DNA of 33,568 nucleotides from Alphaproteobacteria bacterium. Lineage in GTDB: Bacteria; Pseudomonadota; Alphaproteobacteria; UBA7887. This document shows, one piece after another, positions 13,132-31,571 of this stretch (its first letter is position 1; every line of letters begins with the position of its first letter). A program made the translations under genes and the position numbers. The stretch covers positions 1 through 33,568 of the forward strand of contig JANQOH010000347.1 of assembly GCA_028289725.1 (NCBI GenBank), written 5' to 3'. Under the pieces are notes generated by a model that was not told where the DNA came from, did no database searches, and was given only the letters and a program-made list of their open reading frames with translations.

Positions 13132-13539
13132 ATGCGAAATTTGCAGTATCTTGTCGCGATCTTCGTCTCATTCGCGGTGCTTAGCGCGTGCACGCGAGAC
13201 GCACCGATTTACAATGTGAACAGCCACCCAGTGCCTCAGCCGGCGCAAGCCCTTTCGCTCACGGAAATCAAGAATATCATTATGTTGGCGGGAGCGGACC
13301 GTGGTTGGGTAATGGAGGAACAAGGTCAGGGAAGATTAGCCGGCACCTTGCTCGTAAGAACCCACACGGCAAAAGTAGACGTGCAGTATTCACAAACGGA
13401 ATACAGCATCCAATACAAAGACAGTGATAATTTACGCTATACGGGCTCAACAATTCATCGAAATTATAACAAGTGGATTATGAAACTTGAGCAGGACATC
13501 GAACGCGACCTCCAAAGAAAAGCGCTCCAACGGCAATAG
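13132..13539 (+). CDS. Small lipoprotein at the head of the APE operon, paralogue of 11719..12177
   Basis: MRNLQYLVAIFVSFAVLSACTRD is a lipobox signal peptide. Overlaps the start of the downstream KS-like ORF. Confidence 0.8.
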   Translation: MRNLQYLVAIFVSFAVLSACTRDAPIYNVNSHPVPQPAQALSLTEIKNIIMLAGADRGWVMEEQGQGRLAGTLLVRTHTAKVDVQYSQTEYSIQYKDSDNLRYTGSTIHRNYNKWIMKLEQDIERDLQRKALQRQ

Positions 13540-14311
13540 TCCGTCATTTGGTAGGGAGTCAGGTCGCGCGGATATTGGCACACCCATAATCGATTTGACT
13601 GTGACTGCTTGGGCGGCTTGGACACCAGGCGTCGTGACGCAAAAAGATTGGCGCGCGTGGTGCCACGGGTGCCTGGACATGCCGGACGATGACAACAGCC
13701 AGCCCGACTTGCCGGAAGTGCCGATGATGATGCGCCGGCGCTTAAACAGAATGGGCCGGATGGCCGCCCGCGTCGCCTACGATGTCGGAGGGCTAGACGA
13801 AGCCGTCATTGCATATTGTTCGCGATACGGTGATAGCGTTCTGACCTTGTCGCTACTCGATGACATTGTCGACGGTGAATTACCATCGCCCGCGGGCTTC
13901 AGCATGGCGGTCCACAATGCGATCGCAGGCTGGCTATCGATTGTTGCAAAGAATAGGAATGCGCACACCGCGGTTGCGTCGGGTCCCGAAAGCCTTGCGG
14001 CCGGTTTGCTGGAGGCGTCCATGTTGATCACGGAGCAACCTGACCGCGCCGTGATGGTGCTTTATTGCCACGAACCCTTGGCACCGACCTATCGGAAATT
14101 TCAAAGCCCCAGTGATCGGCCCATTTCTTTGGCATTGATGGTCGGTCGAACGCAGACGCGCGCCGGCATTCATTTGTCAGCAAAGCCGCGAAATAGTGGC
14201 GGGAACGATGCGACAGAACCGGAAGCGTTGTCCTTTATCCGGTTTCTCCTGTCTGCTCGGCCAGAAGGGACGTTTGCCGGCGTAGGCCTTGAATGGATGA
14301 GGATGGCGTAG
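13487..14311 (+). CDS. apeC: Beta-ketoacyl synthase-like chain length factor (ApeC-like)
   Basis: FSMAVHNAIAGWLSIVAKNRNAHTAVASGPESLAAGLLEASMLI, typical of the N-terminal KS-like/CLF family. No active-site Cys. Start uncertain. Confidence 0.8.
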   Translation: MSRTSNATSKEKRSNGNSPSFGRESGRADIGTPIIDLTVTAWAAWTPGVVTQKDWRAWCHGCLDMPDDDNSQPDLPEVPMMMRRRLNRMGRMAARVAYDVGGLDEAVIAYCSRYGDSVLTLSLLDDIVDGELPSPAGFSMAVHNAIAGWLSIVAKNRNAHTAVASGPESLAAGLLEASMLITEQPDRAVMVLYCHEPLAPTYRKFQSPSDRPISLALMVGRTQTRAGIHLSAKPRNSGGNDATEPEALSFIRFLLSARPEGTFAGVGLEWMRMA

Positions 14312-14313
14312 CG

Positions 14314-15108
14314 ATGTCGGCCGTGGCGCGTCAGGCTAACTATGCCTGGAGGCTATTCGGCACCGGGTCGGCGTTTCTCTTGTTCAGTCTGGGAGGCGCT
14401 TTGATGTCGGTGACGGTGTTTCCCCTCATCAATCTGGCCGTCCCAAACGATATCAGTCGCGTTTCCCTGACCCGGCGTGTCATCCGAGGTTCATTTCGGC
14501 TGTTTGTTGGCTTTCTTATCGGCATGGGCATTATTCGGTTTAGCGTGCGTGGCTCGGAACGTTTGCGCGAACTGAACGGCGCGATGGTGATTGCCAATCA
14601 TCCGTCATTGTTGGACGTGGTTTTGCTCATGTCGCTAATGCCTGAGGCGCAATGCGTCGTTAAGTCGAGATTATGGCGCAATCCGTTTCTCGGCGGCGTT
14701 GTGCGCGCGGCCGGTTACGTCAGAAATGACGGTGATCCGGAAGCACTGCTCGACGACTGTGTCGACGCGTTAAATGGCGGCCAAAACCTGGTCATTTTTC
14801 CCGAAGGTAGCCGGAGTGTCCCCGGGGAAAAGCCAAATCTCAAGCGCGGGTTTGCTCATGTCGCGTTGCGCGCGGAAGCTGATATTGTACCGATCGCGAT
14901 CTCTTGCAAACCAACCACGCTAACCAAGGGCGAACCATGGTACGCGATTCCGGAACGCCGCATTGTTTATCAATTTGAAGTCTTGGAGCCGATAGAAATA
15001 CGCGCGTATGCCAACCTCGACGTGCCAACGATCGCAGCGCGCAGGCTCTGCCAAGACGTCGACCGGATTTTCGAAAGAGAGCTGGGCTATGAGCGACCTG
15101 GAGCTTGA
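14314..15108 (+). CDS. 1-acylglycerol-3-phosphate (PlsC-like) acyltransferase, ApeD position
   Basis: VIANHPSLLDVVLL (H-x4-D) and IFPEGSRSVPGEKPNLKRGFAHVAL motifs. Confidence 0.87.
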   Translation: MSAVARQANYAWRLFGTGSAFLLFSLGGALMSVTVFPLINLAVPNDISRVSLTRRVIRGSFRLFVGFLIGMGIIRFSVRGSERLRELNGAMVIANHPSLLDVVLLMSLMPEAQCVVKSRLWRNPFLGGVVRAAGYVRNDGDPEALLDDCVDALNGGQNLVIFPEGSRSVPGEKPNLKRGFAHVALRAEADIVPIAISCKPTTLTKGEPWYAIPERRIVYQFEVLEPIEIRAYANLDVPTIAARRLCQDVDRIFERELGYERPGA

Positions 15109-15361
15109 AATAAAATCTTTGATAATCGAGACGCTGAATCTGGAGGAAATTGGGCCTCAGGATATCGACAGTGCCGAGCCGCTTTTTGTGGAAGGTTTGG
15201 GCTTGGATTCGATCGACGCGCTGGAACTCGGTATGGCCATTCAGAAGACATACGGACTTAAATTCGATCCAGACAAGGACGACGTAAAATCGCATTTCGC
15301 GAGTGTCCGGAATCTGGCCCAGTTCGTTGCCGCGGGTACCGGAAAGGCCGCATCTGAATGA
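15089..15361 (+). CDS. apeE: Acyl carrier protein (ApeE-like)
   Basis: GLGLDSIDALELGMAIQKTYGLK phosphopantetheine-site motif. Overlaps the upstream gene by 20 nt. Confidence 0.92.
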   Translation: MSDLELEIKSLIIETLNLEEIGPQDIDSAEPLFVEGLGLDSIDALELGMAIQKTYGLKFDPDKDDVKSHFASVRNLAQFVAAGTGKAASE

Positions 15362-15603
15362 CACGGGACGAAATTTTCGCGACGCTGAAGAAATATCTCC
15401 ACGAAATCTTCGAAGTTGCGGAGTCCGACATCACGCTTGAATCGCGATTGGTCGAGGACTTAGACCTCGACAGTATCGACGCCGTCGACTTGATGGTGAA
15501 GCTTCAGGAATTGACGGGGCGAAAAATTCCTCCGGACGAGTTCCAGACCGTCCGGACGGTGGGCGATGTTGTTGAACGGGTTCATACGCTTCTCAGTGCG
15601 TAA
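15358..15603 (+). CDS. apeF: Acyl carrier protein (ApeF-like)
   Basis: DLDLDSIDAVDLMVKLQELTGRKIP; ATGA overlap with the first ACP. Confidence 0.93.
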   Translation: MTRDEIFATLKKYLHEIFEVAESDITLESRLVEDLDLDSIDAVDLMVKLQELTGRKIPPDEFQTVRTVGDVVERVHTLLSA

Positions 15604-16159
15604 GAAGCGGGTTCTCGGCATTGTCTTTGTCTGCGTCAGCATTCTCTACCCGTTTCTGGTTTATTTTGGTCTTAGCCACGTCGGCCCCTCAACGATCGTC
15701 GTGATTCTTCTGTGCCTGCTAGCCTGTCGAACGCTTTGGTCCAGCGAGGAGCGGGGCCTGCCCATCAGATCAACCTCTGTCATTGCCCTGGCCGGCATAG
15801 CGGGCCTGTTTCTAATCGATAGCGTGGCCGCGGTGCGCGCGTATCCGGTTTTAATCAATTTGGGGTTGGCGCTGGTATTCGCGCTATCGCTCATGAATCC
15901 GCCATCGGCGATCGAGAGGATCGCGCGTTTGACGGAACCTACCCTTGATGATTTCGGCGTTGCATATACTCGAAAAGTGACGTGGGTGTGGTTGGCCTTT
16001 TTCCTTGGCAATGGAACTATTTCGGTGTGGACGGCGGTGTACGGCACGCTCGATCAGTGGACGCTATACAACGGCGTGATTAGCTATCTTCTCATCGTAT
16101 TGCTCTTCGCTGGCGAGTATTTGGTTCGCCGCACAGTTCGGTCGCGTGCGAAAACATGA
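15596..16159 (+). CDS. Multi-pass membrane protein (ApeG position)
   Basis: GTG start overlapping the ACP stop. Several hydrophobic helices. Collinear with the membrane protein found between ACPs and ligase in APE clusters. Confidence 0.75.
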   Translation: MRKKRVLGIVFVCVSILYPFLVYFGLSHVGPSTIVVILLCLLACRTLWSSEERGLPIRSTSVIALAGIAGLFLIDSVAAVRAYPVLINLGLALVFALSLMNPPSAIERIARLTEPTLDDFGVAYTRKVTWVWLAFFLGNGTISVWTAVYGTLDQWTLYNGVISYLLIVLLFAGEYLVRRTVRSRAKT

Positions 16160-17871
16160 GCGGTTACATACCGCTTGCAGAAATCATGAGCCGGCGGGGA
16201 TCGCCGGAGCGTACGGTGTGCCGCCGCGCCTCGGACCCGATCCCTCTGAAGCAACTGCAATCTGACGTCGCTCACAATTCGGTTCGGTTGAAGCAATGCG
16301 TGGAACCGGGCGCAGGCGTGCTGCTGACATGTTCCGATAGCTATTGGTTTGTGGCCGGGCTTTGGTCGGCACTTTACGCGGGTGCGCGTGTGATTTTACC
16401 ACCGAATGTTCAGCCTGGGACCATCGATGAGTTTCATCGTCGCGCCGCCGTTACGGTTCAGGACGCAGGTGCGCACAATGTTCCGAACAGGTTTGTTTGC
16501 GAACCGGGATCGCAGGTGGGTCATTTAGAGCCGTTGGATGCGGCCGACTGCCTATTGGAGTTCTTCACCTCGGGTTCGTCGGGAGAACCGAAATGCGTTG
16601 CGAAGACCCTCAAGCAGTTGGAGGTGGAAGTTAGAGACCTCGACGAGCAATGGGGGCGGGACGTGGGCGACGGATTGGTGCTCACGACCGTTTCACATCA
16701 ACACCTATACGGGCTTACGTTCGGTTTGCTCTGGCCGATCGCGTCTGGACGTCCCTTTGATGTCGAAATTCACCGGATTTGGGAAACCCTGATCAAGCGG
16801 CTTGAAGTCGGCAGCGTGATAGTGTCCAGCCCGGCCCACCTAAGCCGAATGCCGGACCGGCTTGCCGATCAGGTCAGCCAAGAACCTCAGACAGTCCTGT
16901 CCGCGGGCGCGCCACTACCGTGGTCATCCGCGCAGTCCTGTTTTGAGAATTTCGGGTCCTGGCCACTGGAAATATATGGCAGCACGGAAACCGGCGGCGT
17001 CGCCTATCGCCTGCGGTCGTCCGAGGATCCGGCATGGACACCCTTTCGCGGCGTCGAGGTTCGTCCGGGTGCGGAAGGCGTTCTAGCAATTCGGTCGAGC
17101 TATTTGCGTGATCCATCCTGGCATGATCTCGACGATAAAGTTGAGTTCGAGACCGACCGGACTTTCCGGTTAAAGGGCCGCACCGATCGCGTGGCAAAAG
17201 TTGAAGGAACACGCGTCTCTCTGACGGATTTGGAGGCACGCATCATCGCGCTCGCGGACTTCAGCGACGCGGCGGCCGTGGTAATCGACGGCCCGTCGCC
17301 AACGATTGGTGTCGCAGGTGCTTTAAGCGATGTTGGTCGCCGCCGGCTTGCGGAACTCGGACCATTCCGGTTTGGGCGCCGGACCAACGCAAATTTGCGG
17401 CAGCATTTCGAACCGGCAAGCCTACCACGAAGATGGCGCTATATTGACCGCATCCCGACAAACGAACAAGGCAAGCGCGTAACGAGCACCATCAGTAAGT
17501 TGTTCGAGATGAAACCGACCAAGAAACTCACGACGCCAGACGTAAAGGGTATTCGACGATCCGACGAGGGCATCGAGATCGATTTATTCATACCCGGCGA
17601 GATTATGTATTTCGAAGGGCATTTCCCGGACCTGCCAGTTTTACCCGGGATCGTCCAGCTCGATTGGGCTGTTATTGAAGCCAGACGGCATTTCGGGTTG
17701 AGCGCGCCAGTCACCAATGTACAAAATCTCAAATTCCGAAAACTACTTCGGCCTAATACCGACGTTACTTTGACGCTGCGCCATCGCGCAGAAGACGATC
17801 GATTTATCTTTGAGTATCGAGATGGCGAAACGGTCTATTCGTCCGGTCGCTTTGTTTTTGCCGCGACATGA
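16156..17871 (+). CDS. apeH: AMP-dependent acyl ligase fused to C-terminal hotdog dehydratase (ApeH-ApeI fusion)
   Basis: N-terminus LEFFTSGSSGEPKCVAK (P-loop), EIYGSTETGG, FRLKGRTDRVAKVEGTRVSL. C-terminus MYFEGHFPDLPVLPGIVQLDWAVIEARRHFG, a FabZ/ApeI-type dehydratase. Confidence 0.9.
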   Translation: MSGYIPLAEIMSRRGSPERTVCRRASDPIPLKQLQSDVAHNSVRLKQCVEPGAGVLLTCSDSYWFVAGLWSALYAGARVILPPNVQPGTIDEFHRRAAVTVQDAGAHNVPNRFVCEPGSQVGHLEPLDAADCLLEFFTSGSSGEPKCVAKTLKQLEVEVRDLDEQWGRDVGDGLVLTTVSHQHLYGLTFGLLWPIASGRPFDVEIHRIWETLIKRLEVGSVIVSSPAHLSRMPDRLADQVSQEPQTVLSAGAPLPWSSAQSCFENFGSWPLEIYGSTETGGVAYRLRSSEDPAWTPFRGVEVRPGAEGVLAIRSSYLRDPSWHDLDDKVEFETDRTFRLKGRTDRVAKVEGTRVSLTDLEARIIALADFSDAAAVVIDGPSPTIGVAGALSDVGRRRLAELGPFRFGRRTNANLRQHFEPASLPRRWRYIDRIPTNEQGKRVTSTISKLFEMKPTKKLTTPDVKGIRRSDEGIEIDLFIPGEIMYFEGHFPDLPVLPGIVQLDWAVIEARRHFGLSAPVTNVQNLKFRKLLRPNTDVTLTLRHRAEDDRFIFEYRDGETVYSSGRFVFAAT

Positions 17872-19562
17872 CCTTTAGCCCGTGCGCGGTCATACCGAGC
17901 CGCAATCATTACCTTGGCATCGAATTGTTGGTCGCGCGCCTTCGTGCCGAGGGGTTGCCGATTATCATTGTCGATGATGCCAGTTCCGAACCGGCGCGAT
18001 CCACGCTTGCCCAACTTGATAATGAGGATGACCAGATTTCGGTCATCCGAAACGACGTAAATCGCGGCAAGGGCGGCGCCGTCCTGCGCGGCATCGAAGC
18101 GGCTGTCGATCGTGGCTTCTCACATATCGTGCAAATCGACGCTGACGGCCAGCACGATTTGGAGGCCGTGCCCGCGCTTGTGGACCTGGCCCGCCATAAC
18201 CCCGATGCGGTGGTAAGTGGCGTACCGGTCTATCGCGATGGCCAGGCGATCGGACGACGGCTTGCGCGTTGGCTCACCCACGTCTGGATTTGGGTGGAAA
18301 CCCTGTCTTTTCAGATTCGCGACGCCATGTGTGGGTTTCGCGTATACCCGGCTTCGGCCGTTCTGGAGGTGGCGCGCGACGAGCCGCTGGGCCGGTGGAT
18401 GGATTTCGATCCCGAGATCTTGGTGCGCTTGTTTTGGCGCGGTGTCCCGATCGCGCCTCTTCCGGTGAATGTGAAGTACATCGAAGGCAATCCTTCTAAT
18501 TTCGCATTGATCCGTGACAACTGGCGGATCACCAGAATGCATTTTCGGCTCGTCTTTACGATGTTGGCGCGGCTTCCGACCATTTTGCGCAATCGGCCGC
18601 GCCGAATTCGTCAGACCGATGACCACTGGTCCGAATTCGAGGAACGCGGCCTCTATCTCGGGTTGAGAATTCTGGCTTGGATTTATCAATTGCTGGGCAA
18701 GCGCATATGCTTAGCCATCATGGCGCCGGTCGTGCTGTACTTTTACGTGAGTGGCGGGGCGCAACGCCGGGCGTCCGAAGCCTATTTGCGACGCATTGGC
18801 CAGGCCCGAGGCAACCCCTTTCGCCGTTTGCGTTTATCGAGCTTCAAACATTTCTTCCATTTTGCCGCCCTCTCTCTCGACAAGTTTGCCGCATGGACAG
18901 GCGACGTAAGCGGGGAGACGATCGTATTCGAAGACCTTGCCGCCATCGATCGCCTAACTGAGCGCGGTGAGGGCGTGCTGGCTCTCTGTTCGCATCAGGG
19001 AAATGTCGAGTTGAGCCGAGCAATGTCCCGGGCCCTTCATGCGGGGCTTGTGGTCAATATTCTGGTGCATACGAAGCATGCCGCGCGTTTCAATCGCCTC
19101 ATTCAGAAGTTCAATCCTGAGGCCGGCGTCAACGTGGTCCAAGTGACCGAGGTCGGACCGGATACCGCGCTCGACCTGAAACAACGGATCGAACGGGGTG
19201 AGTGGGTCGTCATCGCCGCAGACCGCACTGCGATTGCAAGCGCAGGGCACTACAGCATGGCGGAGTTTCTTGGCGCACCAGCGCCGTTTCCGCATGGCCC
19301 TTTCATCATTGCAAACTTACTGAAATGCCCCGTTTACCTGCTGTTTTGCATAAGGGAGGGCGCACGATATCGTTTGTACTTTGAGCCGTTCGCCGACCAA
19401 GTCAGATTGGCTCGTAGCAATCGGATTAACGATTTGAAGGCGCTGACGCGGCGTTTCGCGCAACGTCTTGAGCATTACTGCCTGTTGGCACCGCTGCAGT
19501 GGGGTAATTTTTACGATTTCTGGGCGGTTCCATCGAACGAACCCGAGAACGCCAAGGGATAG
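17868..19562 (+). CDS. Family 2 glycosyltransferase fused to lysophospholipid acyltransferase-like domain (ApeJ-like)
   Basis: N-terminus IIIVDDASSEPARS...NRGKGGAVLRGIEAA...VQIDADGQHD (GT2). C-terminus LALCSHQGNVELSRAMSRAL...IAADRTAIASAGHYS (LPLAT-like). Confidence 0.9.
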   Translation: MTFSPCAVIPSRNHYLGIELLVARLRAEGLPIIIVDDASSEPARSTLAQLDNEDDQISVIRNDVNRGKGGAVLRGIEAAVDRGFSHIVQIDADGQHDLEAVPALVDLARHNPDAVVSGVPVYRDGQAIGRRLARWLTHVWIWVETLSFQIRDAMCGFRVYPASAVLEVARDEPLGRWMDFDPEILVRLFWRGVPIAPLPVNVKYIEGNPSNFALIRDNWRITRMHFRLVFTMLARLPTILRNRPRRIRQTDDHWSEFEERGLYLGLRILAWIYQLLGKRICLAIMAPVVLYFYVSGGAQRRASEAYLRRIGQARGNPFRRLRLSSFKHFFHFAALSLDKFAAWTGDVSGETIVFEDLAAIDRLTERGEGVLALCSHQGNVELSRAMSRALHAGLVVNILVHTKHAARFNRLIQKFNPEAGVNVVQVTEVGPDTALDLKQRIERGEWVVIAADRTAIASAGHYSMAEFLGAPAPFPHGPFIIANLLKCPVYLLFCIREGARYRLYFEPFADQVRLARSNRINDLKALTRRFAQRLEHYCLLAPLQWGNFYDFWAVPSNEPENAKG

Positions 19563-19572
19563 GCGAAACTAC

Positions 19573-19980
19573 ATGATTTCCGCAGATATCCAAGTCCGAG
19601 CCCACTTCTATCATTTGGATCCCATGAACATTGTGTGGCATGGCAATTATGCGACGTTTCTCGAGGAAGCGCGGTGCGAGCTACTCGAAAAAATCGACTA
19701 TGACTACGATCAAATGGCTGAATCCGGTTACCTTTGGCCAATCGTTGATATGCGAATTAAGTATGTTCGCCCGATCAAGTTCCGCCAAGATGTACGGGTT
19801 CGCGCCACGCTGAAGGAATTCGAAACACGCCTTAAGATCGACTATTTGATTAGCGATGCCGAGACCGGCGAACGATTGACCCGCGCCCATACGGTTCAAG
19901 TGGCCGTCGACGCGGCAACGCAGGAAATGTGCTTCGAGTCGCCCGCGGTTTTTCGTCGGAAGGTCGAAGCTCTTCTATGA
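19573..19980 (+). CDS. apeK: 4HBT-type acyl thioesterase (ApeK-like)
   Basis: IQVRAHFYHLDPMNIVWHGNYATFLEEARCELLEKIDYDYDQM. Confidence 0.9.
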   Translation: MISADIQVRAHFYHLDPMNIVWHGNYATFLEEARCELLEKIDYDYDQMAESGYLWPIVDMRIKYVRPIKFRQDVRVRATLKEFETRLKIDYLISDAETGERLTRAHTVQVAVDAATQEMCFESPAVFRRKVEALL

Positions 19981-20612
19981 GGCGCGCCGGGTATCACGTT
20001 TTCGCCGTAGCGGCGGTTTGCATTTTCGCGTCGGCCTTGTTGGCGGCGGGCCCCAGCCTTGTTGTAGAACCAGACCAGGTGTTGCGCGGACGCTTTGAGC
20101 AGCAACGTCAACTGAGTGGATTCGAAACGCCGTTGGTGTCGAATGGCCGGTTCGTTGTCGTGGGGGACCGTGGCGTACTTTGGCGAACCGAAGATCCGCT
20201 ACAGTTTGATCTGGTGATCACACCGTCTCGGTTCGTGCAAGTATTGCCGGGAGAACCGCCGGTGGATGTGGTGCCGGCCGAAGCGGCGACTATAGATATT
20301 TTTGGCATCATCACGGGATTGTTGCGCGGCGCGCCGGCCGACGAGATGGATGCGGCATTTCACATCGTGTCCACGGAAGTCGCCGGAACTTCGTGGGCTT
20401 ACGCGCTGACACCGAAGTCGGAATATCTGACCAAACAAATGGAAGCGATATCGGTTGCCGGTTCGGATTTTGTGGAGAATGTTGAGGTGCGGAAGCCGAA
20501 CGGTGACCGAGATACCCTTAGTTTCACCGATCACGTTTTGTCTGATCGATCCTTGACGGATGATGAAGCTGCACTGCTGGACATTGTTTACGGAAGCGCT
20601 GCAGCGCCGTGA
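19977..20612 (+). CDS. LolA-like outer-membrane lipoprotein carrier (ApeL-like)
   Basis: Signal peptide then LRGRFEQQRQLSGFETPLVSNGRFVVVGDRGVLWRTEDPLQFDLVITPSRF, a LolA-type N-terminus. ATGA coupling. Confidence 0.88.
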   Translation: MRRAGYHVFAVAAVCIFASALLAAGPSLVVEPDQVLRGRFEQQRQLSGFETPLVSNGRFVVVGDRGVLWRTEDPLQFDLVITPSRFVQVLPGEPPVDVVPAEAATIDIFGIITGLLRGAPADEMDAAFHIVSTEVAGTSWAYALTPKSEYLTKQMEAISVAGSDFVENVEVRKPNGDRDTLSFTDHVLSDRSLTDDEAALLDIVYGSAAAP

Positions 20613-22966
20613 GGCTGGCTTCGGCTCTCTTTTGGCTTGTTCTCGTCGGTGGCTCCTTGGTCCATGTCGCGGACCGATTTCGTGATGGTGTTGCGCTCTC
20701 ATCAGATCTGATGGCTCTCCTGCCGGAAGAAGATGGCCAAAGTGTTAGAGCGGCCGTCAGCCAAGCCAGCGCGGATAGTCTGTCACGAGACATCATGTTC
20801 CTATTTGGTCATGAAGACGCGGCTGTGGCCGAGTCTACGGCCGCCGCGTTTGCGCGCGCGCTTGCGGATAGCGATTTGATCTCGGAAACCGGTGATCAAA
20901 GCCGCCGCGCGGCTGAACAAGAACTGAGCGCGCTCTTGTTCAGACATCGCTCCGGGCTGCTCTCCGATACGGACCGTCTCGTTTTACGATCGGGCCAGGT
21001 TTCGGCTTTGTATCAGCGCGCGCTCGCGCAGATTTTTTCACCCATCGGGTCCGTCGATTCGCGACTCTTGCTTGCTGATCCGTTTCAGCTGTTTTTCAAT
21101 TACGTCGCCACGCTTGGCGCTCTCAGAGATAGTCTTGTTTCTTCGGCGGGCGGTACCGTATCCGGGTCCAATGGCAAGACCTATGCGGTCGTCTCGGCGA
21201 AGTTGGCGGGCGAACCCTACGCGCTTTCGTTCCAACGCCGATTCATGGCTTGGTTCGACTCATGGGAAGCGGCGCACACCGCCACGCTTTCGGGCGATGG
21301 ATCCGCAATCGAGATCTTGCGTGCCGGCGCGATTTTCTATGCCTACGAGGGAGCTCGGCAAGGTCTCAATGAGGCGACGGTCATCGGCGGTTTTGCGCTC
21401 GTCGGCGTAATCGTACTTGTCCTCCTGGCATTCGGCAGTTTGCAGCCGATCGGTCTCACCCTTCTGTCGATTTTGTCGGGTCTCATTGTTGCGCTGTCGG
21501 TCAACTTACTGGTTTTCGACAGCCTCCATTTCATCGCGGTGTTGTTCGGCGCCGGGCTCATTGGAATTTCGGTCGATTATTCCCTGCACTATTGCTGCGA
21601 GCGATTTGGTGCTGTCGCGAAACCGCGGGAACGACTCGACAATATATTGCCGGCGGCAACGCTCGGCTTAGTGACGTCCAGCATCGGGTTCTTGACGCTG
21701 GCATGGGCACCGTTTCCCGGTCTGCGGCAGATTGCGCTATTTGCCGCGATTGGCTTGGCGGCGGCTTATCTCACCGTGGTGATCTGGTTTCCTGTGCTCG
21801 ACCGATCACCAGATCGAAAAGCCAACGCTTGGCTGATGCGCGTGGCGACGGAGCCAAGAGCGCTTTGGCACGACGGAACGAGGCGCCTTTATCGGTATGT
21901 GGCCTTGGCCGTGCTCGCAGTTGCTGCGATCGTCGGCGGTTCCGCGCTCAATGTCTCAGACGATCTCCGACGGTTTCAGGCTTTGTCGGCCGATCTGGTC
22001 TCGCAGGAACAGGCGATCCGGGAAATCACAGGATTGGAACCAGGTCTGCAGTTTTACGTTGTTACCGGCTCGTCAGACGAAGAGGTTTTGGCGACAGAAG
22101 AACTCTTGCGCGAGCGATTGGCGGCATTGCGCGAGAGGGGTGGAGTCACGAAAGTCCTAGCGATCAGTCAATTCGTCCCGTCCGAGGCGCGTCAGGCCGA
22201 GAATGCGGCCCTTGTCCAACAACATCTAGGGACAGCTGCTCGAGAACGGTTAAGAGCCGACACAGGCTTGCCAATTGACATCGATGATGCGCCAGAAAAT
22301 GGCCCGGCCTTAACTCTGGATGAATTTCGTGCCCATGCCCCGCGTGCCCTCGTCGATCTGCTGATCCCCAACCTTGGCGTGGACCAACACGTGAGCATTG
22401 TTCTGCTCCGCGGCGTGTCTGATGTCGATAAGGCCCAGGCCGCCGCCGCGGACATCCCGGGCGTGGAGTATGTCGATCCGGCAGCCGACATCAGTGCCTT
22501 GTTCCGGACATATCGCAAGGTCGCGCTGATTTTGCTGGGCGTTTCGGTCTTGGTGATGGTGCCGGTCTTGGTGTGGCGCTATCGCCCACACGGCGCCTTC
22601 CGGATACTTCTGCCGCCCGTTGCGTCGGTCGTGATCGCGCCTTGCGTCGTCGCGTTGACCGGCGAGCCCATCACCTTCTTCAATGTGATGGCATTAGTGC
22701 TGGTGTTCGCAATCGGGATCGACTACGCGTTTTTTTGTCGCGAATCGCACCCGTCTCGGCTCAATATCAACGCCCTAGCCAATGGCTTGGCGGCAGCGTC
22801 GACGATTTTGTCGTTCGGATTGCTCGCATTCAGCGGAATTCCCGTGGTTCACTCGTTCGGATTGACCGTATTTGTCGGTATCTTGATCGCATTTTTGCTG
22901 GCGCCGCTCGCCGAACGGACGAACGGCAAGGACGAGGGTCTTGGTGGCAGCGCACGAAACACGTGA
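20609..22966 (+). CDS. MMPL/RND-type exporter (ApeM-like)
   Basis: 785 aa with two TM blocks. AVLFGAGLIGISVDYSLHYCCERFG and MALVLVFAIGIDYAFFCRES are typical MMPL GxxxDY helices. Confidence 0.92.
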   Translation: MRLASALFWLVLVGGSLVHVADRFRDGVALSSDLMALLPEEDGQSVRAAVSQASADSLSRDIMFLFGHEDAAVAESTAAAFARALADSDLISETGDQSRRAAEQELSALLFRHRSGLLSDTDRLVLRSGQVSALYQRALAQIFSPIGSVDSRLLLADPFQLFFNYVATLGALRDSLVSSAGGTVSGSNGKTYAVVSAKLAGEPYALSFQRRFMAWFDSWEAAHTATLSGDGSAIEILRAGAIFYAYEGARQGLNEATVIGGFALVGVIVLVLLAFGSLQPIGLTLLSILSGLIVALSVNLLVFDSLHFIAVLFGAGLIGISVDYSLHYCCERFGAVAKPRERLDNILPAATLGLVTSSIGFLTLAWAPFPGLRQIALFAAIGLAAAYLTVVIWFPVLDRSPDRKANAWLMRVATEPRALWHDGTRRLYRYVALAVLAVAAIVGGSALNVSDDLRRFQALSADLVSQEQAIREITGLEPGLQFYVVTGSSDEEVLATEELLRERLAALRERGGVTKVLAISQFVPSEARQAENAALVQQHLGTAARERLRADTGLPIDIDDAPENGPALTLDEFRAHAPRALVDLLIPNLGVDQHVSIVLLRGVSDVDKAQAAAADIPGVEYVDPAADISALFRTYRKVALILLGVSVLVMVPVLVWRYRPHGAFRILLPPVASVVIAPCVVALTGEPITFFNVMALVLVFAIGIDYAFFCRESHPSRLNINALANGLAAASTILSFGLLAFSGIPVVHSFGLTVFVGILIAFLLAPLAERTNGKDEGLGGSARNT

Positions 22967-24176
22967 CGTCGCGGTCATCGGCGCCGGACCGGCCGGCGCG
23001 GTGGCGGCCGTCATGCTGGCGCGTCGCGGCACGGATGTTTTGGTTCTCGAAAGAGAAACGTTTCCGCGCTTCAGCATCGGTGAAAGCCTGTTGCCGCAAT
23101 CCATGCCGGTCTTGGAGCGTGCGGGCGTCATCGGTGCGGTAACCGATCACGGTTTCCAACTCAAAAACGGGGCATCGTTTCGGCGCGGCCCCAAGACCAG
23201 CGTGATCGATTTTCGAGAAAAATACACCGAAGGTTGGGGAACAACCTTCCAAGTCCAACGTGCGACGTTCGACAAAATTCTCGCCGATCAAATCGAACCG
23301 GTCGGCGGCGCGTTGCGTTTCGGCCAGACCATCACCGGCGTGGCGTTCGATGCGCGTTCCGCGGTGCTGAATGTACGCGACAGGGCCGGTCGTGATTACG
23401 AAGTCCGCGCGCGGTTTGTCCTCGACGCCAGCGGATTCGGGCGCGTGTTGCCAAGATTGCTGGGACTTGAAGAAGACGCGAAGCTGACCAATCGGCAAGC
23501 GTTATTCGTTCACGTTCGCGATCGGATCACCGATGAGCAATTCGACCGAAACAAAATTCTGATCACGGTACATCCGGACGAGCCCGATATTTGGTATTGG
23601 TTGATCCCGTTTTCGGATGGCACGTCCTCGCTCGGGGTGGTCGGGCGTCCGGCGCAAGTGGCGGCACGCGGCACTGGGCATCGTGACCAGCTTTGGGGAT
23701 TGGTGACCGAAGCTGTAGAACTGAAACAGCTGCTGAATGACGCTGAAGAAACTCGGGACGTCGGCAGCATTGCCGGATATTCGCGCCGTGCCTCGGCATT
23801 GCACGGACGGAATTACGCATTACTTGGCAATGCCGGAGAATTCTTGGACCCGGTTTTCTCGTCGGGTGTGACCATCGCGCTGAAATCCGCGGATTTGGTC
23901 GTCGATCCCGTTATGCGGCACTTAGCGGGCAAAACTGTCGACTGGGAAGAAGAGTATTCGAAATCTCTGCGCGTGGGCATCGACACATTTCGGCACTTTG
24001 TCCAGGCTTGGTATGACGGTTCGCTCCAAAAGATCATTTTCAGTACGCCTGGCGACAATCACTCCATTCAAAGAATGGTCGTGTCCGTTTTGGCAGGTTA
24101 CGCTTGGGATCAGAGCAATCCGTTCGTCTCCGAAACCGAGCGATATTTGTCGGCCTTAGCGGGCCAACTGTCCTAG
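22941..24176 (+). CDS. FAD-dependent oxidoreductase, flavin-dependent halogenase-like
   Basis: VIGAGPAGAVAA (GxGxxG), FPRFSIGESLLP, FQLKNGASFRRG (catalytic-Lys-like region), WYWLIP (WxWxIP) at 23592-23609, FLDPVFSSG (FxxPxxSxG) at 23841-23867. Start TTG 22941 or GTG 22944. Confidence 0.85.
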   Translation: MVAAHETRDVAVIGAGPAGAVAAVMLARRGTDVLVLERETFPRFSIGESLLPQSMPVLERAGVIGAVTDHGFQLKNGASFRRGPKTSVIDFREKYTEGWGTTFQVQRATFDKILADQIEPVGGALRFGQTITGVAFDARSAVLNVRDRAGRDYEVRARFVLDASGFGRVLPRLLGLEEDAKLTNRQALFVHVRDRITDEQFDRNKILITVHPDEPDIWYWLIPFSDGTSSLGVVGRPAQVAARGTGHRDQLWGLVTEAVELKQLLNDAEETRDVGSIAGYSRRASALHGRNYALLGNAGEFLDPVFSSGVTIALKSADLVVDPVMRHLAGKTVDWEEEYSKSLRVGIDTFRHFVQAWYDGSLQKIIFSTPGDNHSIQRMVVSVLAGYAWDQSNPFVSETERYLSALAGQLS

Positions 24177-24178
24177 AT

Positions 24179-24754
24179 GTGCGACTGACATTTTTTTCAT
24201 TAATTGGATTACTAATGATCGCGGGCTGCGTGAAGGATCCACCGCTTCCAAGTGCGCGGATCGCGCCCGGGGTGAGTTTCTCCTTGCCGCCCCTTACCGG
24301 CGACATGGCGTCGATAGAAGCCGCGCAGGCCGTGCTTGGTGAGGCGGGCGGATCGCCGGTTCAGTTCCAATCGCAAATCAAGGCGGCGGATGGAAAGGTC
24401 GTCGTGGTGATGGTCGATCCCCTCGGCCGGCGCGCGTTGGAAATCGAATGGAGCGCCGACGGCATCGCAATCGACGCCGCGCCGTGGCTGCCTGAGCAAG
24501 TCCGGCCTCTGAATGTTCTGGCCGACATTGTGATCGCGCACTGGCCCGCCGAGGCGGTGAGAGCGGGTCTGGCCGAGACCGGTGCACGCTTGCGCGTTGC
24601 CGGCAATGCGCGCGAGATTGCGATGGCGGACGACCTGCTCATGCAAGTTGAGTATGGGGAGGATTTTCAGCCCCCGTGGCATGGATCTCTGGTGGTTCGC
24701 AATTTCGCTTTAGACTATAGCCTTAAGATAATATCGACGCCGACAGGCCCATGA
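24179..24754 (+). CDS. Lipoprotein, DUF3261-like (ApeN position)
   Basis: GTG start; VRLTFFSLIGLLMIAGCVKDPP lipobox. KVVVVMVDPLGRRALEIEWSADGI resembles the lipoprotein family found in APE clusters. Confidence 0.75.
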   Translation: MRLTFFSLIGLLMIAGCVKDPPLPSARIAPGVSFSLPPLTGDMASIEAAQAVLGEAGGSPVQFQSQIKAADGKVVVVMVDPLGRRALEIEWSADGIAIDAAPWLPEQVRPLNVLADIVIAHWPAEAVRAGLAETGARLRVAGNAREIAMADDLLMQVEYGEDFQPPWHGSLVVRNFALDYSLKIISTPTGP

Positions 24755-25941
24755 ACGATCGGATCTACCTAAACGCGCTCGGCATCGTTTGCCCGCTCGG
24801 CAACGACAAAGCCGCTGTCGCCGCAGGCCTATTCGCAGGAGACGGTCACGGCTTGCGGATGTCCGACGCGCACATCCCGGGTCGATCCGTGCCAGTCGGC
24901 GCGCTAGCGGGCGAGTTGCCGGCCCTCCCGCCGGAATTCGGCAAGGTGAACAGCCGCAACAATCGCGTCTTGCTGGCGGCCCTAAACCAAATCGATGCAG
25001 AAATCCGGGAAGCCGTCGAACGGTGGGGCGCCGATCGCATCGGTATCGTGCTGGGTACGAGCACTTCCGGCGTGGCGGAAGGGCAGCGCGCTTTGGCAGA
25101 CTTGAGGGCCACCGGTGAGTGGCCCGAATGGTTCGACTATCAGCAACAAGAACCGGGTAGCCTTTCGGATTTTGCGGCGCGCTACCTGTCCATATCCGGG
25201 CCCGCTTACACGATCTCGACCGCTTGTTCGTCGTCCGGGAAAACTTTCGCCTCGGCCCGCCGACTGCTACGGCAAGGTCTGTGTGATGCCGTTATCGTCG
25301 GCGGCGCTGACACGTTGTGTGGCCTTACGCTGACAGGTTTTGCGGGGATGGAGGCGGTGTCGAACCGTGTCTGCAATCCATTTAGCGCGAACCGCGACGG
25401 CATTACGATCGGCGAAGGCGCAGCGGTTTTTCTGGTGACCCGCGAACCGGCGGCGGTTGAACTGCTGGGTGTGGGCGAAACTTCGGACGCGCATCATGTA
25501 AGCGCACCGGATCCAACAGGTGCGGGCGCGCGGGAGGCCATGAAGCTTGCTCTGGCCATGGCTGACTTGGCGCCGTCCGACGTCGCTTATGTCAATTTGC
25601 ACGGCACCGCGACGCCTTTGAACGACGCCATGGAATCCTTGGCCGTCTCAGAATTGTTCGACCGGACAACCCCGGTCAGCTCCACCAAGCCCTTGACGGG
25701 TCATTTGCTGGGCGCGGCGGGGGGCGTCGAGACCGCGTTTCTGTGGCTCGCGCTGCATCCGGATTTTGACGACCGGCTGCCGCCGCACCGTTGGGACGGT
25801 GTCGCGGACCCGGCGCTTCCTGCTCTCGAATTTGTCGACGAAACTCAGCCGATCCGAATTCCAGCGCGGACGACCATGGTGAGCAATTCGTTCGCGTTCG
25901 GCGGCAGCAATGTCAGCGTGCTGTTGGGGCGCGGCTGGTGA
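24751..25941 (+). CDS. apeO: Beta-ketoacyl-ACP synthase (ApeO-like)
   Basis: ISTACSSSGKTFASARRLL (active Cys), NLHGTATPLNDAMES and STKPLTGHLLGAAGGVE (both His). Confidence 0.92.
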   Translation: MNDRIYLNALGIVCPLGNDKAAVAAGLFAGDGHGLRMSDAHIPGRSVPVGALAGELPALPPEFGKVNSRNNRVLLAALNQIDAEIREAVERWGADRIGIVLGTSTSGVAEGQRALADLRATGEWPEWFDYQQQEPGSLSDFAARYLSISGPAYTISTACSSSGKTFASARRLLRQGLCDAVIVGGADTLCGLTLTGFAGMEAVSNRVCNPFSANRDGITIGEGAAVFLVTREPAAVELLGVGETSDAHHVSAPDPTGAGAREAMKLALAMADLAPSDVAYVNLHGTATPLNDAMESLAVSELFDRTTPVSSTKPLTGHLLGAAGGVETAFLWLALHPDFDDRLPPHRWDGVADPALPALEFVDETQPIRIPARTTMVSNSFAFGGSNVSVLLGRGW

Positions 25942-25942
25942 G

Positions 25943-26392
25943 ATGGACCCGAAGCGCTACAGCCTTGAGGACCTCCTGCCGCACGCGCCGCCGATGATCT
26001 TGCTGGACGAGGTCATCGACTATGACGGCGACACCCTGACCGCTGCGGTGACTATCCGCAAAAATAGCCACTTCCTGCAATCGGAAGGTGTCCCCTCGTA
26101 TGTCGGGATCGAATACATGGCCCAGGCCATCGCCGCCTACGGCGGTTTTGAGGCCTTGGACGAGGGCCGACCGGTGCGCGTCGGCTTCCTGCTCGGGACC
26201 CGGAAGTTTGAACCGAAAACCGCCCATTTTCGCGTGGGCGAACGCCTTGTTGTCCAGGTCTCGGCCATCTATAAGGAAGCATTGTCGTCGTTCTCTTGCC
26301 ACATTCAGATTAATGAGACGGTCGTGGCGGAGGCAAACCTTAGCGTGTATCAGCCGGCAGACTCATCGGAGCAGTCGCTGATCGACCATTGA
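25943..26392 (+). CDS. apeP: Hotdog-fold 3-hydroxyacyl-ACP dehydratase (ApeP-like)
   Basis: LLPHAPPMILLDEVIDYDGD...GVPSYVGIEYMAQAIAAYGGFEA. Confidence 0.9.
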   Translation: MDPKRYSLEDLLPHAPPMILLDEVIDYDGDTLTAAVTIRKNSHFLQSEGVPSYVGIEYMAQAIAAYGGFEALDEGRPVRVGFLLGTRKFEPKTAHFRVGERLVVQVSAIYKEALSSFSCHIQINETVVAEANLSVYQPADSSEQSLIDH

Positions 26393-26396
26393 ACTG

Positions 26397-27122
26397 ATGG
26401 AAAAGCGGATACTGGTGACCGGCGCAAGCAAAGCGATCGGCCGGGCAATTGCGGTTCAGCTGGGACGTGACGGGTTTTCCGTTACCGCACATTGTCACCG
26501 CGATACGGAGGGGGCGACAGAAACCGTCGATGCGATTAAGTCGGACGGCGGGACGGCTCAAATGATCCAGTTCGATGTATCGACCCGAGACCAGTGTCGG
26601 GAAGTGTTGGAGCACGATGTCGCCGCACACGGTGCTTATTATGGGGTCGTTCTCAACGCCGGTATTGCTCAGGACGCCGCTTTTCCCGCGATGAGCGACG
26701 AGGCCTGGGACGCGGTCTTGGCCACCAATTTGGACGGCTTTTACAACGTCTTGCACCCATTGATAATGCCTATGGTTCGCGCGCGCGCGGGAGGCCGAAT
26801 CGTTGCTATGTCATCCATTTCCGGTTTGATGGGCAATCGTGGCCAAGTGAATTATAGCGCATCAAAAGCCGGGCTCATCGGCGCGGTGAAGTCTCTCGCG
26901 ATTGAATTGGCAAAGCGAAAAATCACCGTCAATTGCGTGGCGCCCGGACTCATTGACACGGAAATGATCCAGGATTTGCCGTTGGACGAAGTCTTGGCCA
27001 TGGTGCCCATGCGGCGCGTCGGCACGCCTGAAGAGGTCGCTGCATTGGTCGGCTTTCTTGCTTCGGACAAAGCGTCGTACATCACCCGGCAAGTGATCTC
27101 GGTTAATGGAGGCATGGCATGA
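26397..27122 (+). CDS. apeQ: 3-oxoacyl-ACP reductase, FabG-like (ApeQ-like)
   Basis: ILVTGASKAIGRAIAVQL, MSSISGLMGNRGQVNYSASKAGLIGAVKSLA (S-Y-K). Confidence 0.93.
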   Translation: MEKRILVTGASKAIGRAIAVQLGRDGFSVTAHCHRDTEGATETVDAIKSDGGTAQMIQFDVSTRDQCREVLEHDVAAHGAYYGVVLNAGIAQDAAFPAMSDEAWDAVLATNLDGFYNVLHPLIMPMVRARAGGRIVAMSSISGLMGNRGQVNYSASKAGLIGAVKSLAIELAKRKITVNCVAPGLIDTEMIQDLPLDEVLAMVPMRRVGTPEEVAALVGFLASDKASYITRQVISVNGGMA

Positions 27123-28348
27123 GCCGGCGTGTCGTGGTGACCGGCATGGCCGGTCTGACCGCGCTTGGAGAGGTGTGGTCCGATATTCGCGCCGCCATGG
27201 AACAGGGGCGGACCGGAACCCGAACCATGCCGGAATGGGACAAGTTCGACGGCCTTAGCACCCGGCTCGCCGCCCCGATCGAAGGGTTCTCGGTGGAAGG
27301 CCGGTATCCACGCAAAAAATTGCGCAGCATGGGGCCGGTAGCGCGCATGGCTGTATACGCCACGGAAAAGGCCTTGGAATCCGCTGGGTTGCTTGAGGAC
27401 CCGGTCGTGCAATCCGGTCGCATGGGGATCGCCTATGGTTCGTCATTTGGCAGCACGAACCCAGTTCTCGATTTCGCTGCTATGCTAACCGAAGGCACCA
27501 TGCAGAAACTGAACGGAACCAGCTACATCCGAATGATGAACCATACGGCCGCAGTGAATATTGGGGTATATTTCGGATGCACCGGACGTATAATTCCAAC
27601 CTCAAGCGCATGTACGTCGGGCAGCCAAGGCATTGGTTATGCCTATGAAGCAATCAAGTTTGGCCGCCAAGATTTGATGGTCGCGGGCGGCGGTGAAGAG
27701 CTTTGTCCGTCGATGGCGGCGGCGTTCGATGTTCTCTATGCGACCAGCGTTCAGAATGACAAGCCAGAGACAACGCCACGGCCGTTCGACAAGGATCGTG
27801 ATGGCCTGGTGGTTGGGGAAGGCGCGGCGACTCTCGTGCTGGAGGAATTGGAGCACGCAAAGGCGCGCGGCGCGACCATCTGCGCGGAAATTGTCGGTTT
27901 CGGCACAAATTCGGATGGCAATCATATAACCCAACCGGGCCAAGAAACGGTAGAGCAGGCGCTTCGCTTGGCACTGGCGGATGCGGATTTGCAGCCTGAG
28001 GCGATCCGATATGTCAGCGGCCACGGCACCGCCACCAAGCAGGGCGACATCGCTGAAAGCCACGCCACCGCAAATGTGCTAGGCGAAGGAACCGCGATCA
28101 ATTCGCTAAAGAGCTATTTCGGGCACAATTTGGGGGCATCTGGCGCTGTCGAAGCTTGGCTTGCTATCGAAATGATGCGGGACAATTGGTACGCGCCGAC
28201 GGCAAATCTTGAAAACGTCGATCCCGAGTGCGCGAACCTGAATTACATTATGGGATCCGGAATAGAAATGGACAATGAGTATATTATGACCAACAACCTG
28301 GCATTTGGCGGGATCAACACCTCAATCATCTTTAGAAAATCTCAGTAG
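27119..28348 (+). CDS. apeR: Beta-ketoacyl-ACP synthase (ApeR-like)
   Basis: TSSACTSGSQGIGYAYEAI (Cys), SGHGTATKQGDIAES and LKSYFGHNLGASGAVEAW (His). Confidence 0.93.
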   Translation: MSRRVVVTGMAGLTALGEVWSDIRAAMEQGRTGTRTMPEWDKFDGLSTRLAAPIEGFSVEGRYPRKKLRSMGPVARMAVYATEKALESAGLLEDPVVQSGRMGIAYGSSFGSTNPVLDFAAMLTEGTMQKLNGTSYIRMMNHTAAVNIGVYFGCTGRIIPTSSACTSGSQGIGYAYEAIKFGRQDLMVAGGGEELCPSMAAAFDVLYATSVQNDKPETTPRPFDKDRDGLVVGEGAATLVLEELEHAKARGATICAEIVGFGTNSDGNHITQPGQETVEQALRLALADADLQPEAIRYVSGHGTATKQGDIAESHATANVLGEGTAINSLKSYFGHNLGASGAVEAWLAIEMMRDNWYAPTANLENVDPECANLNYIMGSGIEMDNEYIMTNNLAFGGINTSIIFRKSQ

Positions 28349-28383: not shown

Positions 28384-28929
28384 TCAATTCAATGAAATCG
28401 GCAGAGAATAATTGACGATGATGAACTCTTCTCCGGGGTTCGAATCGTAGATGTGTGCGTTTGAGAGATGGCCAAATTGCAGGCCCACGCGCGACTTGTT
28501 GTCGAAGCGATAGGCCAATTCGATTGCCGAGCGAAACTCAACCACGCCGCCGAGGTCCTTACCGCCGCCGTCATGATAGGCGCCAACGCTGATACTGGGG
28601 CTGAGGATCAAGCGGCTGCCGAGGTCGAAATCCGAATAGAACCCGACGTGCCCATATAAGGCACCATCCGATGTCGCGAAAACACCCGCTTGTGGCAGAA
28701 ATATCCACAAGCCGCGATTGAGCCGGAGCTGAAGGTCAAATTCCGCGGCAGTCTGGTCGTCGAATATGTCAAAGGCGCCAACCCCGAACGTAACGTAACT
28801 TGGATCGTCACCTGCGATCGCGGCTTCGGTCGAAGCGAGCAGCATTGTGGCGAAGAGAACCGCGGCCCAAGCCCTGCCACGACCACTTGCGGTTATGACG
28901 CGAGACAGGCAAATCGAAAACAGGCCCAT
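28384..28929 (-). CDS. PagL-like lipid A 3-O-deacylase / acyloxyacyl hydrolase
   Basis: Signal peptide, short beta-barrel-like protein. C-terminus SRVGLQFGHLSNAHIYDSNPGEEFIIVNYSLP matches the PagL H-S...NPG-E pattern. Confidence 0.85.
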   Translation of the reverse strand: MGLFSICLSRVITASGRGRAWAAVLFATMLLASTEAAIAGDDPSYVTFGVGAFDIFDDQTAAEFDLQLRLNRGLWIFLPQAGVFATSDGALYGHVGFYSDFDLGSRLILSPSISVGAYHDGGGKDLGGVVEFRSAIELAYRFDNKSRVGLQFGHLSNAHIYDSNPGEEFIIVNYSLPISLN

Positions 28930-29343
28930 TCGGGTTCTCCATTCCAAAGCATAGAGTGTGGAAGGCGCCGCTCAGATTGTTGGTCGGACAATCGTGACGG
29001 GTTCAATGCAAAATCACGCCGACCGCAAACTATCCGATTCGAAATGACGAGACACCAGCGCGACCGGGACCCGCGGGTACGGACCCCGATGGGTCAGGCA
29101 AGAAGATTACATATGAGGGAGAGTGAAGCGCGGCTTTCCCGATTGGTGGGTGAGGCCAGTAGCTCACCGACGCGAATCTGTGATCGCCGTCACAAAGGGG
29201 CAGGTTGAGCGCCAAATTAGACCGTCAATTTGTGCCAAGTTGCCCGATCCAGACCATTTTTCATCAAGGGAAGAGCAAAAAGTCGAGGCCTGAGACGAGC
29301 GCGCTCCACATCGTCTGGTGCGCGCCGTGCTCGGCAAGGTGGT

Positions 29344-30125: not shown

Positions 30126-31571
30126 TTGGGTACGATCAGCGACCTAAGCACCGGAATAACGGTAGAGACGAACGCGCTAAAACGCCGGGTCGCCGCCGGC
30201 GCGACGGTGCTGGCGGAGCACGGAATCGGTCCCGGCGACCGGGTGATGATCGTTCACGGCGACAGCCCGGCTTTCTTCATCGATTTGCTGGCGGTTTGGC
30301 GGCGTGGCGCCTGCGCCGTTTGCACCAATCCGGGATCCAGTACGAATGAGCTGGAGAACCTGTGTGACTTTACCGAACCTTCGCTCATTTTGGTTTTGGA
30401 CGATGGCAAGACCGACTGGGATGCCCGATTGGGTTCGATTTCGATCGCGCGGCAGGCTCTCGGTACAGCGGCGCCAGTAAATCAAGCCGAGGCTCAGGAG
30501 CCGATGCCGGACGATCCGGCGTTAATTCTGTTTACGTCCGGTTCGACCGGCGTCCCGAAAGGCGTGGTTCACAGCTTTCGATCGCTTGGCGCGCGTCTGG
30601 ATCTGAATCGAAGGCATATCGGATTGGACGATATGGCGCGTACCATGTGCGTGCTGCCGACCCATTTCGGACACGGCCTGATCGGCAATTGCCTCACGCC
30701 GCTCTTGGCAGGATGTGATTTGTATTTGATGGCGGGCGACGCCCTTCGCGCGGCCAGCAAACTAGGCGCCCTGATCGATGAGCACGCGATGACCTTCATG
30801 TCGTCGGTGCCTGCCTTTTGGCGGCTCGCCCTCAAGGCGGGCCGCCCGCCGACCGCCGGAACGATGCGGCGCATTCACATCGGATCCGCGCCGCTGTCAG
30901 CCGATCTATGGAATCAGGTGATCGCCTGGTCCGGAACGAAGAACGTCGTGAACATGTACGGACTAACCGAAACGGCAAACTGGGTCGCCGGTGCCTCGGC
31001 ACAGGATTACGCACCGGAAGACGGCTTGATCGGAAAACTCTGGGGCGGGCGGGCCGCGGTTTGCGACGACGCCGGCCGACGGCATGAAAGCGGCGAAGGC
31101 GAATTGGTGCTGCAGGCGCCATCTTGCATGACAGGGTATTTGAAGCAGCAGGACCTGACAGACAGCGTCTTGCGGGACGGCTGGTTTCGCACTGGTGACG
31201 TGGGCCGTATTGAGTCCGACGGCACATTACGGCTGACCGGCCGGAAGCGCACCGAAATCAACCGTGCCGGTATTAAGGTGCATCCGGAAGAAGTCGACCT
31301 CATGATCGAACGGCACCCGGCCGTCGCGGAAGTTTGTACTTTCGGGGTACCGGACCCGGTGGCCGGCGAGATTGTCGGCGTCGCGGTTCGTTTGGAAGAC
31401 GGCGAGGATGTTAAAGAGCAGGAGTTAAGGTCTTGGTGCAGCCACCAGATTCGAAAAGAGGCGCGACCGGACCGGTGGTTCTTCGTGTCACAAATCCCAA
31501 GAACCGACCGGGGCAAAGTGAATCGCGCGTCGGTTCGCCAAATGTGCCTATCGGAAAACCAAAGAAGGTAG
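30126..31571 (+). CDS. AMP-dependent acyl-CoA/acyl-ACP synthetase
   Basis: LILFTSGSTGVPKGVVHS (P-loop), NMYGLTETANWV, GWFRTGDVGRIESDGTLRLTGRKRTEINRAGIKVHPEEVD. N-terminus uncertain (TTG start). Confidence 0.92.
   Translation: MGTISDLSTGITVETNALKRRVAAGATVLAEHGIGPGDRVMIVHGDSPAFFIDLLAVWRRGACAVCTNPGSSTNELENLCDFTEPSLILVLDDGKTDWDARLGSISIARQALGTAAPVNQAEAQEPMPDDPALILFTSGSTGVPKGVVHSFRSLGARLDLNRRHIGLDDMARTMCVLPTHFGHGLIGNCLTPLLAGCDLYLMAGDALRAASKLGALIDEHAMTFMSSVPAFWRLALKAGRPPTAGTMRRIHIGSAPLSADLWNQVIAWSGTKNVVNMYGLTETANWVAGASAQDYAPEDGLIGKLWGGRAAVCDDAGRRHESGEGELVLQAPSCMTGYLKQQDLTDSVLRDGWFRTGDVGRIESDGTLRLTGRKRTEINRAGIKVHPEEVDLMIERHPAVAEVCTFGVPDPVAGEIVGVAVRLEDGEDVKEQELRSWCSHQIRKEARPDRWFFVSQIPRTDRGKVNRASVRQMCLSENQRR

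Follow-up and report, generated by a model that had tools for sequence, protein, structure and literature searches.

A candidate flavin-dependent halogenase encoded in a conserved slot of aryl polyene operons

Introduction

Aryl polyenes (APEs) are yellow membrane pigments of bacteria, and the forms described from Escherichia coli are unhalogenated. Few families of bacterial pigments are as widespread as the APEs (PMC8253772). Here, we analyzed a 33,568-nucleotide stretch of alphaproteobacterial DNA (contig JANQOH010000347.1, the window in the following), in which a gene resembling flavin-dependent halogenases (FDHs) lies within an APE operon, and asked whether its product is a halogenase and whether the pigment is its substrate.

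Results

A complete APE operon with an additional gene between ApeM and ApeN

Pfam and NCBIfam profile searches of the window identified a complete APE operon on the + strand (13487-28348), with all expected components in order: ketosynthase/chain length factor, acyl carrier proteins (ACPs), AMP-ligase, ketoreductase, ApeI and ApeP dehydratases, thioesterase, LolA-like protein, MMPL exporter and DUF3261 lipoprotein. The features are as follows.

12135-12953, - strand: 4'-phosphopantetheinyl transferase, which probably arms the ACPs (Pfam ACPS, 1.5e-10)
13487-14311, + strand: ApeC-type ketosynthase N-domain/chain length factor (Pfam PF13723, 2.4e-47)
14293-15108, + strand: ApeD-type acyltransferase (TIGR00530, 4.8e-18)
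15008-15361, + strand: acyl carrier protein 1, whose actual start is probably further inside the ORF (homology to ACPs of related clusters)
15358-15603, + strand: acyl carrier protein 2 (homology to ACPs of related clusters)
15566-16159, + strand: ApeG-type membrane protein (position and homology)
16156-17871, + strand: fused AMP-ligase/ApeI-like dehydratase, starter activation (Pfam AMP-binding, ApeI-like)
17868-19562, + strand: ApeJ-type glycosyltransferase/acyltransferase (Pfam PF00535, PF03279)
19468-19980, + strand: ApeK-type thioesterase (Pfam 4HBT_2)
19929-20612, + strand: ApeL-type LolA-like protein (NF053544, weak, 6e-5; homology in related clusters)
20609-22966, + strand: ApeM-type MMPL/RND exporter (HpnN/HAE3 transporter models; slot of E. 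coli ApeM)
22941-24176, + strand: FDH-type halogenase gene (catalytic-type lysine, K75; WYWLIP, 218-223; FLDPVFSSG, 301-309)
24182-24754 (ORF listed from 24104), + strand: ApeN-type DUF3261 lipoprotein (Pfam DUF3261, 1.1e-24)
24751-25941, + strand: ApeO-type ketosynthase (NF006618, 7e-153)
25910-26392, + strand: ApeP dehydratase (Pfam ApeP-like, 2.1e-19)
26397-27122, + strand: ApeQ-type ketoreductase (TIGR01831, 1.4e-121)
27119-28348, + strand: ApeR-type ketosynthase (NF006587, 3.9e-205)

The halogenase ORF encodes a full-length FDH-type protein of 411 amino acids. Its start codon is TTG, with the ribosome-binding-site-like sequence GGACGAGGG immediately 5' of it, although translation could equally well begin at the GTG at 22944. 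The first-pass annotation had placed the gene between the exporter and DUF3261 genes with a 26-nt overlap with the exporter, and the coordinates and profile matches agree with this, the overlap being 23 nt if the GTG is used. The lipoprotein likely starts at the in-frame GTG at 24182, past the halogenase stop, and the overlap of the halogenase with the DUF3261 ORF listed from 24104 is therefore a start-codon artifact.

No flavin reductase or halide transporter gene was found within the APE cluster; a flavin reductase is encoded on a different contig of the same genome. Directly beyond the operon lies a gene for a PagL-like lipid A 3-O-deacylase (28384-28947, - strand), which may relate to outer-membrane adaptation, and further downstream (30126-32140, + strand) a second AMP-ligase gene (30126-31571) is followed by an overlapping GNAT acetyltransferase ORF.

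Motifs, profiles, and predicted fold place the protein with the halogenases

All the sequence features previously claimed for the protein were located in the translated ORF: GxGxxG, K75 within FQLKNGASF, WYWLIP (residues 218 to 223) and FLDPVFSSG (residues 301 to 309). These motifs align with their counterparts in CndH, Mpy16 (PDB 5BUK), ChlB4, and FasV (PDB 8ZOP). The Pfam Trp_halogenase profile (PF04820 type) matched with an E value of 3.5e-22 (79.3 bits against a cut-off of 21). By phmmer, the best match among solved structures was 3NIX (1.8e-96), and the next solved relatives were Mpy16, FasV, CndH, ChlB4, PltA, and CmlS. Both the profile and the phmmer matches are far above chance. The NCBIfam cut-offs for CmlS (151 of 900 bits), QhpG (91 of 240), LodB (72 of 400), and geranylgeranyl reductase (112 of 158.8) were not reached by the window protein.

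An AlphaFold model built with 20 sequences had a pLDDT of 91.1 and a pTM of 0.91. When this model was compared with the PDB using Foldseek, the top match was again 3NIX (TM 0.93), followed by halogenases only (ChlB4, PltA, Mpy16, RadH, FasV, Bmp2, CmlS, CndH, CtcP, and PltM). The first reductase, 3OZ2 (TM 0.67), ranked below all of them. From the alignment to solved enzymes and the fold match, we infer that K75 would lie in the tunnel that connects the FAD with the substrate site.

The protein belongs to a clade of APE-associated FDH-type proteins

In a tree of 75 rows (quick search, SH-aLRT support only), the window protein fell inside a clade of APE-associated FDHs (APE-FDH; support 96). This clade is sister, with support of 100, to a group formed by AltN, 3NIX, a Bacteroidota protein, and one myxococcal protein, within the block of lysine-bearing halogenases. 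The QhpG/LodB proteins and the geranylgeranyl reductases lie outside the FDH block, and the xanthomonadin-type halogenases form a separate clade (SH-aLRT, 99). In the alignment, K75, WxWxI, and FxxPxxSxG are kept in every row of the APE-halogenase clade, while the QhpG, LodB-like, and geranylgeranyl reductase controls are without the lysine, WxWxIP, and FxxPxxSxG. A further signature is N297 (GNAxEF.DP), common to all APE-FDH, AltN, and 3NIX rows and replaced by D in all 28 other FDH rows; this D-to-N change beside FLDP is unusual among FDHs, and AltN has the same N. Residues Q73, W357, Y387, and W389 are also common to the APE-FDH, AltN, and 3NIX rows.

The tree with characterized halogenases thus bears out the proposed FDH class, placing the protein among halogenases and not among reductases or oxygenases. 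Identity as a geranylgeranyl reductase or hydroxylase was discarded on the motifs, the tree, and the profile cut-offs. A true QhpG is encoded in the window genome itself (L148), providing a useful internal control. Two Myxococcota loci (L036 and L045) harbor a further halogenase lineage (33 to 34% identity) beside APE-type ketosynthase and ketoreductase genes, which branches below the APE-FDH/AltN clade.

The ApeM-ApeN slot is occupied in many APE clusters

About 30 APE clusters carry a homologue (44 to 55% identity) in the same ApeM-ApeN slot, including those of Pseudoalteromonas, Acinetobacter baumannii, and Cupriavidus. A genome scan returned 49 loci, about 24 of them at 45 to 54% identity to the window halogenase; most of these belong to APE clusters, where their position is nearly always the same. 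The slot is filled in A. baumannii CP035931, Pseudoalteromonas shioyasakiensis, and Cupriavidus metallidurans CH34. Members of the clade are spread over many nonmarine bacteria, and the homologues show approximately 50% identity across phyla with K75 invariant. In a survey of 385 genomes of the class, the halogenase gene was detected in 9 and ApeP above the cut-off in 19, all 9 halogenase carriers being among those 19 (Fisher P = 2e-13, a guide only, since the genomes are not independent). Among the class clusters that were extracted, the halogenase-bearing ones all have the gene between M and N, and in at least five clusters without it M adjoins N.

These observations modify the description of the gene as inserted in the APE operon. 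The term is fair relative to E. coli and several relatives in the class, where M and N abut, but the insertion is an old and widespread variant, and the implied singularity of the gene was wrong. A one-off insertion in the window genome was discarded, given that the same slot is filled in many APE clusters, as was phage carriage, with no match among phages. In the Neisseria gonorrhoeae record NZ_CP119140, the halogenase homologue (L138) is split in two pieces, and no APE genes were detected within 10 kb on either side of it. This 2.17-Mb record is filed as a plasmid, although it looks like a chromosome.

Starter unit and the link with an aromatic amino acid lyase

Most halogenase-bearing clusters contain an aromatic amino acid lyase gene between J and K, which implies a coumarate-type 4-hydroxyphenyl starter there. 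The lyase is missing from the window cluster, from that of Cupriavidus, and from those of three class relatives. A strict link between halogenase and lyase was rejected in both directions: the halogenase occurs without the lyase in the window, L011, L106, L188, L191, and L195, and the lyase occurs alone in L200 and L205, two APE clusters without halogenase in which the genes are seen to be separable. No aromatic amino acid lyase, chorismatase, or methyltransferase gene adjoins the window APE cluster, and the ApeB methyltransferase had no match outside E. coli among the loci compared. Coumarate from a lyase elsewhere in the genome is unlikely, as the sole PF00221 protein (C106; L057, 727-2382) shares 22% identity with the APE lyase. 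It has an apparent signal peptide and GSMGDADL at the expected MIO-forming ASG motif, and is possibly a nonlyase relative. By analogy with E. coli, the simplest guess for the starter acid would be 4-hydroxybenzoate from ubiquinone synthesis.

Discussion

The window protein is a real FDH-family enzyme, as shown by the gene and its motifs, by the fold of the model, by the clade, and by a position that is conserved across APE clusters. Its activity as a halogenase is suggested by the sequence and the model, and an aryl polyene substrate by the analogy with AltN. On these grounds, we consider it probable that the gene product halogenates the aryl head group of the APE.

In FDHs, FADH2 and O2 form a C4a-hydroperoxyflavin, halide attack on which yields HOX, and a lysine steers the HOX to a substrate about 10 Å away, with the WxWxIP motif proposed as a shield of the substrate from direct hydroxylation (PMC10696468). 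The window enzyme would be a two-component-type FDH built into the APE operon, binding free FADH2 supplied by a general flavin reductase encoded elsewhere in the genome. Bound FADH2 would react with O2 to give the C4a-hydroperoxyflavin, which would oxidize bromide or chloride to HOX. The HOX would then travel down the internal tunnel, where K75 might orient it toward the electron-rich ring of the polyene head group, the favored site of attack being ortho to a phenolic OH. A free aryl acid or an ACP-bound aryl polyene is the likely substrate, and the halogenated pigment would subsequently reach the outer membrane via ApeL, ApeM, and ApeN.

Among the other readings, an oxygenase built on the FDH scaffold, which hydroxylates or oxidizes the aryl head or the polyene and adds no halogen, has the most in its favor but is still unlikely. 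QhpG and LodB are halogenase-like FAD oxygenases that score on the same profiles, the clade is found across many nonmarine bacteria, and the Azoarcus pigment is nonbrominated despite a halogenase gene in its cluster (PMC3949708). Nevertheless, the lysine and both motifs are retained without exception in the clade and missing from the QhpG, LodB-like, and geranylgeranyl reductase controls, which also branch beyond the FDH block, and the proposed shielding role of WxWxIP speaks against hydroxylation (PMC10696468). Moreover, the sister clade holds AltN, a brominase by genetic evidence (PMC5577590).

We regard as very improbable that the enzyme does halogenate but acts on something other than the head group of the pigment, such as a free phenol or a different aromatic of the cell envelope, so that the APE operon would be a mere host locus. 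FDHs can be promiscuous, and about half of APE clusters are without the gene, which is therefore not needed for making the polyene; however, the strict co-occurrence with APE clusters and the fixed slot argue against an unrelated target, and the chain modified by AltN is itself an aryl polyene (PMC5577590). We give the same small weight to a nonhalogenating remnant retained in the operon, able to bind FAD and devoid of useful activity. Such decay might be illustrated by the gonococcal homologue in two pieces, and the literature that was found reports no halogenated product of such operons, but the window ORF is full length with every catalytic motif present, and the identity kept across phyla together with the invariant K75 implies purifying selection.

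The main interest lies in the commonness of the operon subtype and in a halogenase that is not of the xanthomonadin type. About half of the APE clusters in the class, plus those of A. baumannii, Cupriavidus, Pseudoalteromonas, and others, carry an FDH of a non-Xanthomonas lineage. Whether this FDH is dedicated to the head group and halogenated APEs are a widespread, overlooked default, bromo- or chloro-APEs being common bacterial membrane pigments, we regard as an even bet. Should the products of this operon subtype prove to be halogenated, much of the APE family would have been misdrawn, the light absorption, redox behavior, and membrane fit of the pigments could differ, and many FDHs annotated merely as NAD(P)/FAD-dependent oxidoreductases would gain a testable substrate.

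Comparison with known systems

The E. coli APE cluster (apeA-R) matches the window order gene for gene from ApeC to ApeR (PCN033; CFT073 table in PMC8253772). It differs in having no halogenase, with ApeM and ApeN abutting, and in having the methyltransferase ApeB, absent from the window. The closest solved structure both by sequence and by fold, 3NIX, is a flavoprotein/dehydrogenase from the Bacteroidota bacterium Cytophaga hutchinsonii; the entry assigns no function. The carrier-protein pyrrole halogenases PltA, ChlB4, Mpy16, and Bmp2 share fold and motifs with the window protein (TM 0.80 to 0.87) but have 24 to 28% identity, act on pyrroles, and are distant in the tree.

The xanthomonadin, arcuflavin, and alterochromide systems provide earlier examples of halogenases encoded in APE-type clusters. 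Xanthomonadins are brominated aryl polyenes (PMC3691225), and the Xanthomonadales enzyme is likewise an FDH encoded beside APE-type genes. However, it shows 33 to 37% identity to the window protein, forms a separate clade, has D for N, and its gene is divergent to its own neighbors; it is not an orthologue of the window protein. The nonbrominated pigment of Lysobacter enzymogenes, which is without the halogenase gene (PMC3691225), fits the gene being responsible for halogenation. In Azoarcus BH72, the arc cluster has an annotated halogenase (ArcA) and arcuflavin is a nonbrominated aryl heptaene (PMC3949708), so that the presence of a halogenase is suggestive and not sufficient.

AltN of the bromoalterochromide pathway groups with 3NIX and a Bacteroidota protein in a clade that is sister to the APE clade and not part of it, and its gene stands beside nonribosomal peptide synthetase (NRPS) genes, absent from the window, for a lipopeptide and not a membrane-anchored APE. 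We identified AltN in Pseudoalteromonas genomes as the homologue of 39 to 42% identity directly downstream of giant NRPS genes, because this position matches the altM-altN order of the alterochromide cluster (PMC7333567). That identity extends over the full length, with the same lysine, WxWxIP, FxxPxxSxG, and rare N before EF.DP. The AltN pathway has a phenol-headed polyene chain, and deletion of altN abolishes bromination of the alterochromides while nonbrominated forms remain (PMC5577590).
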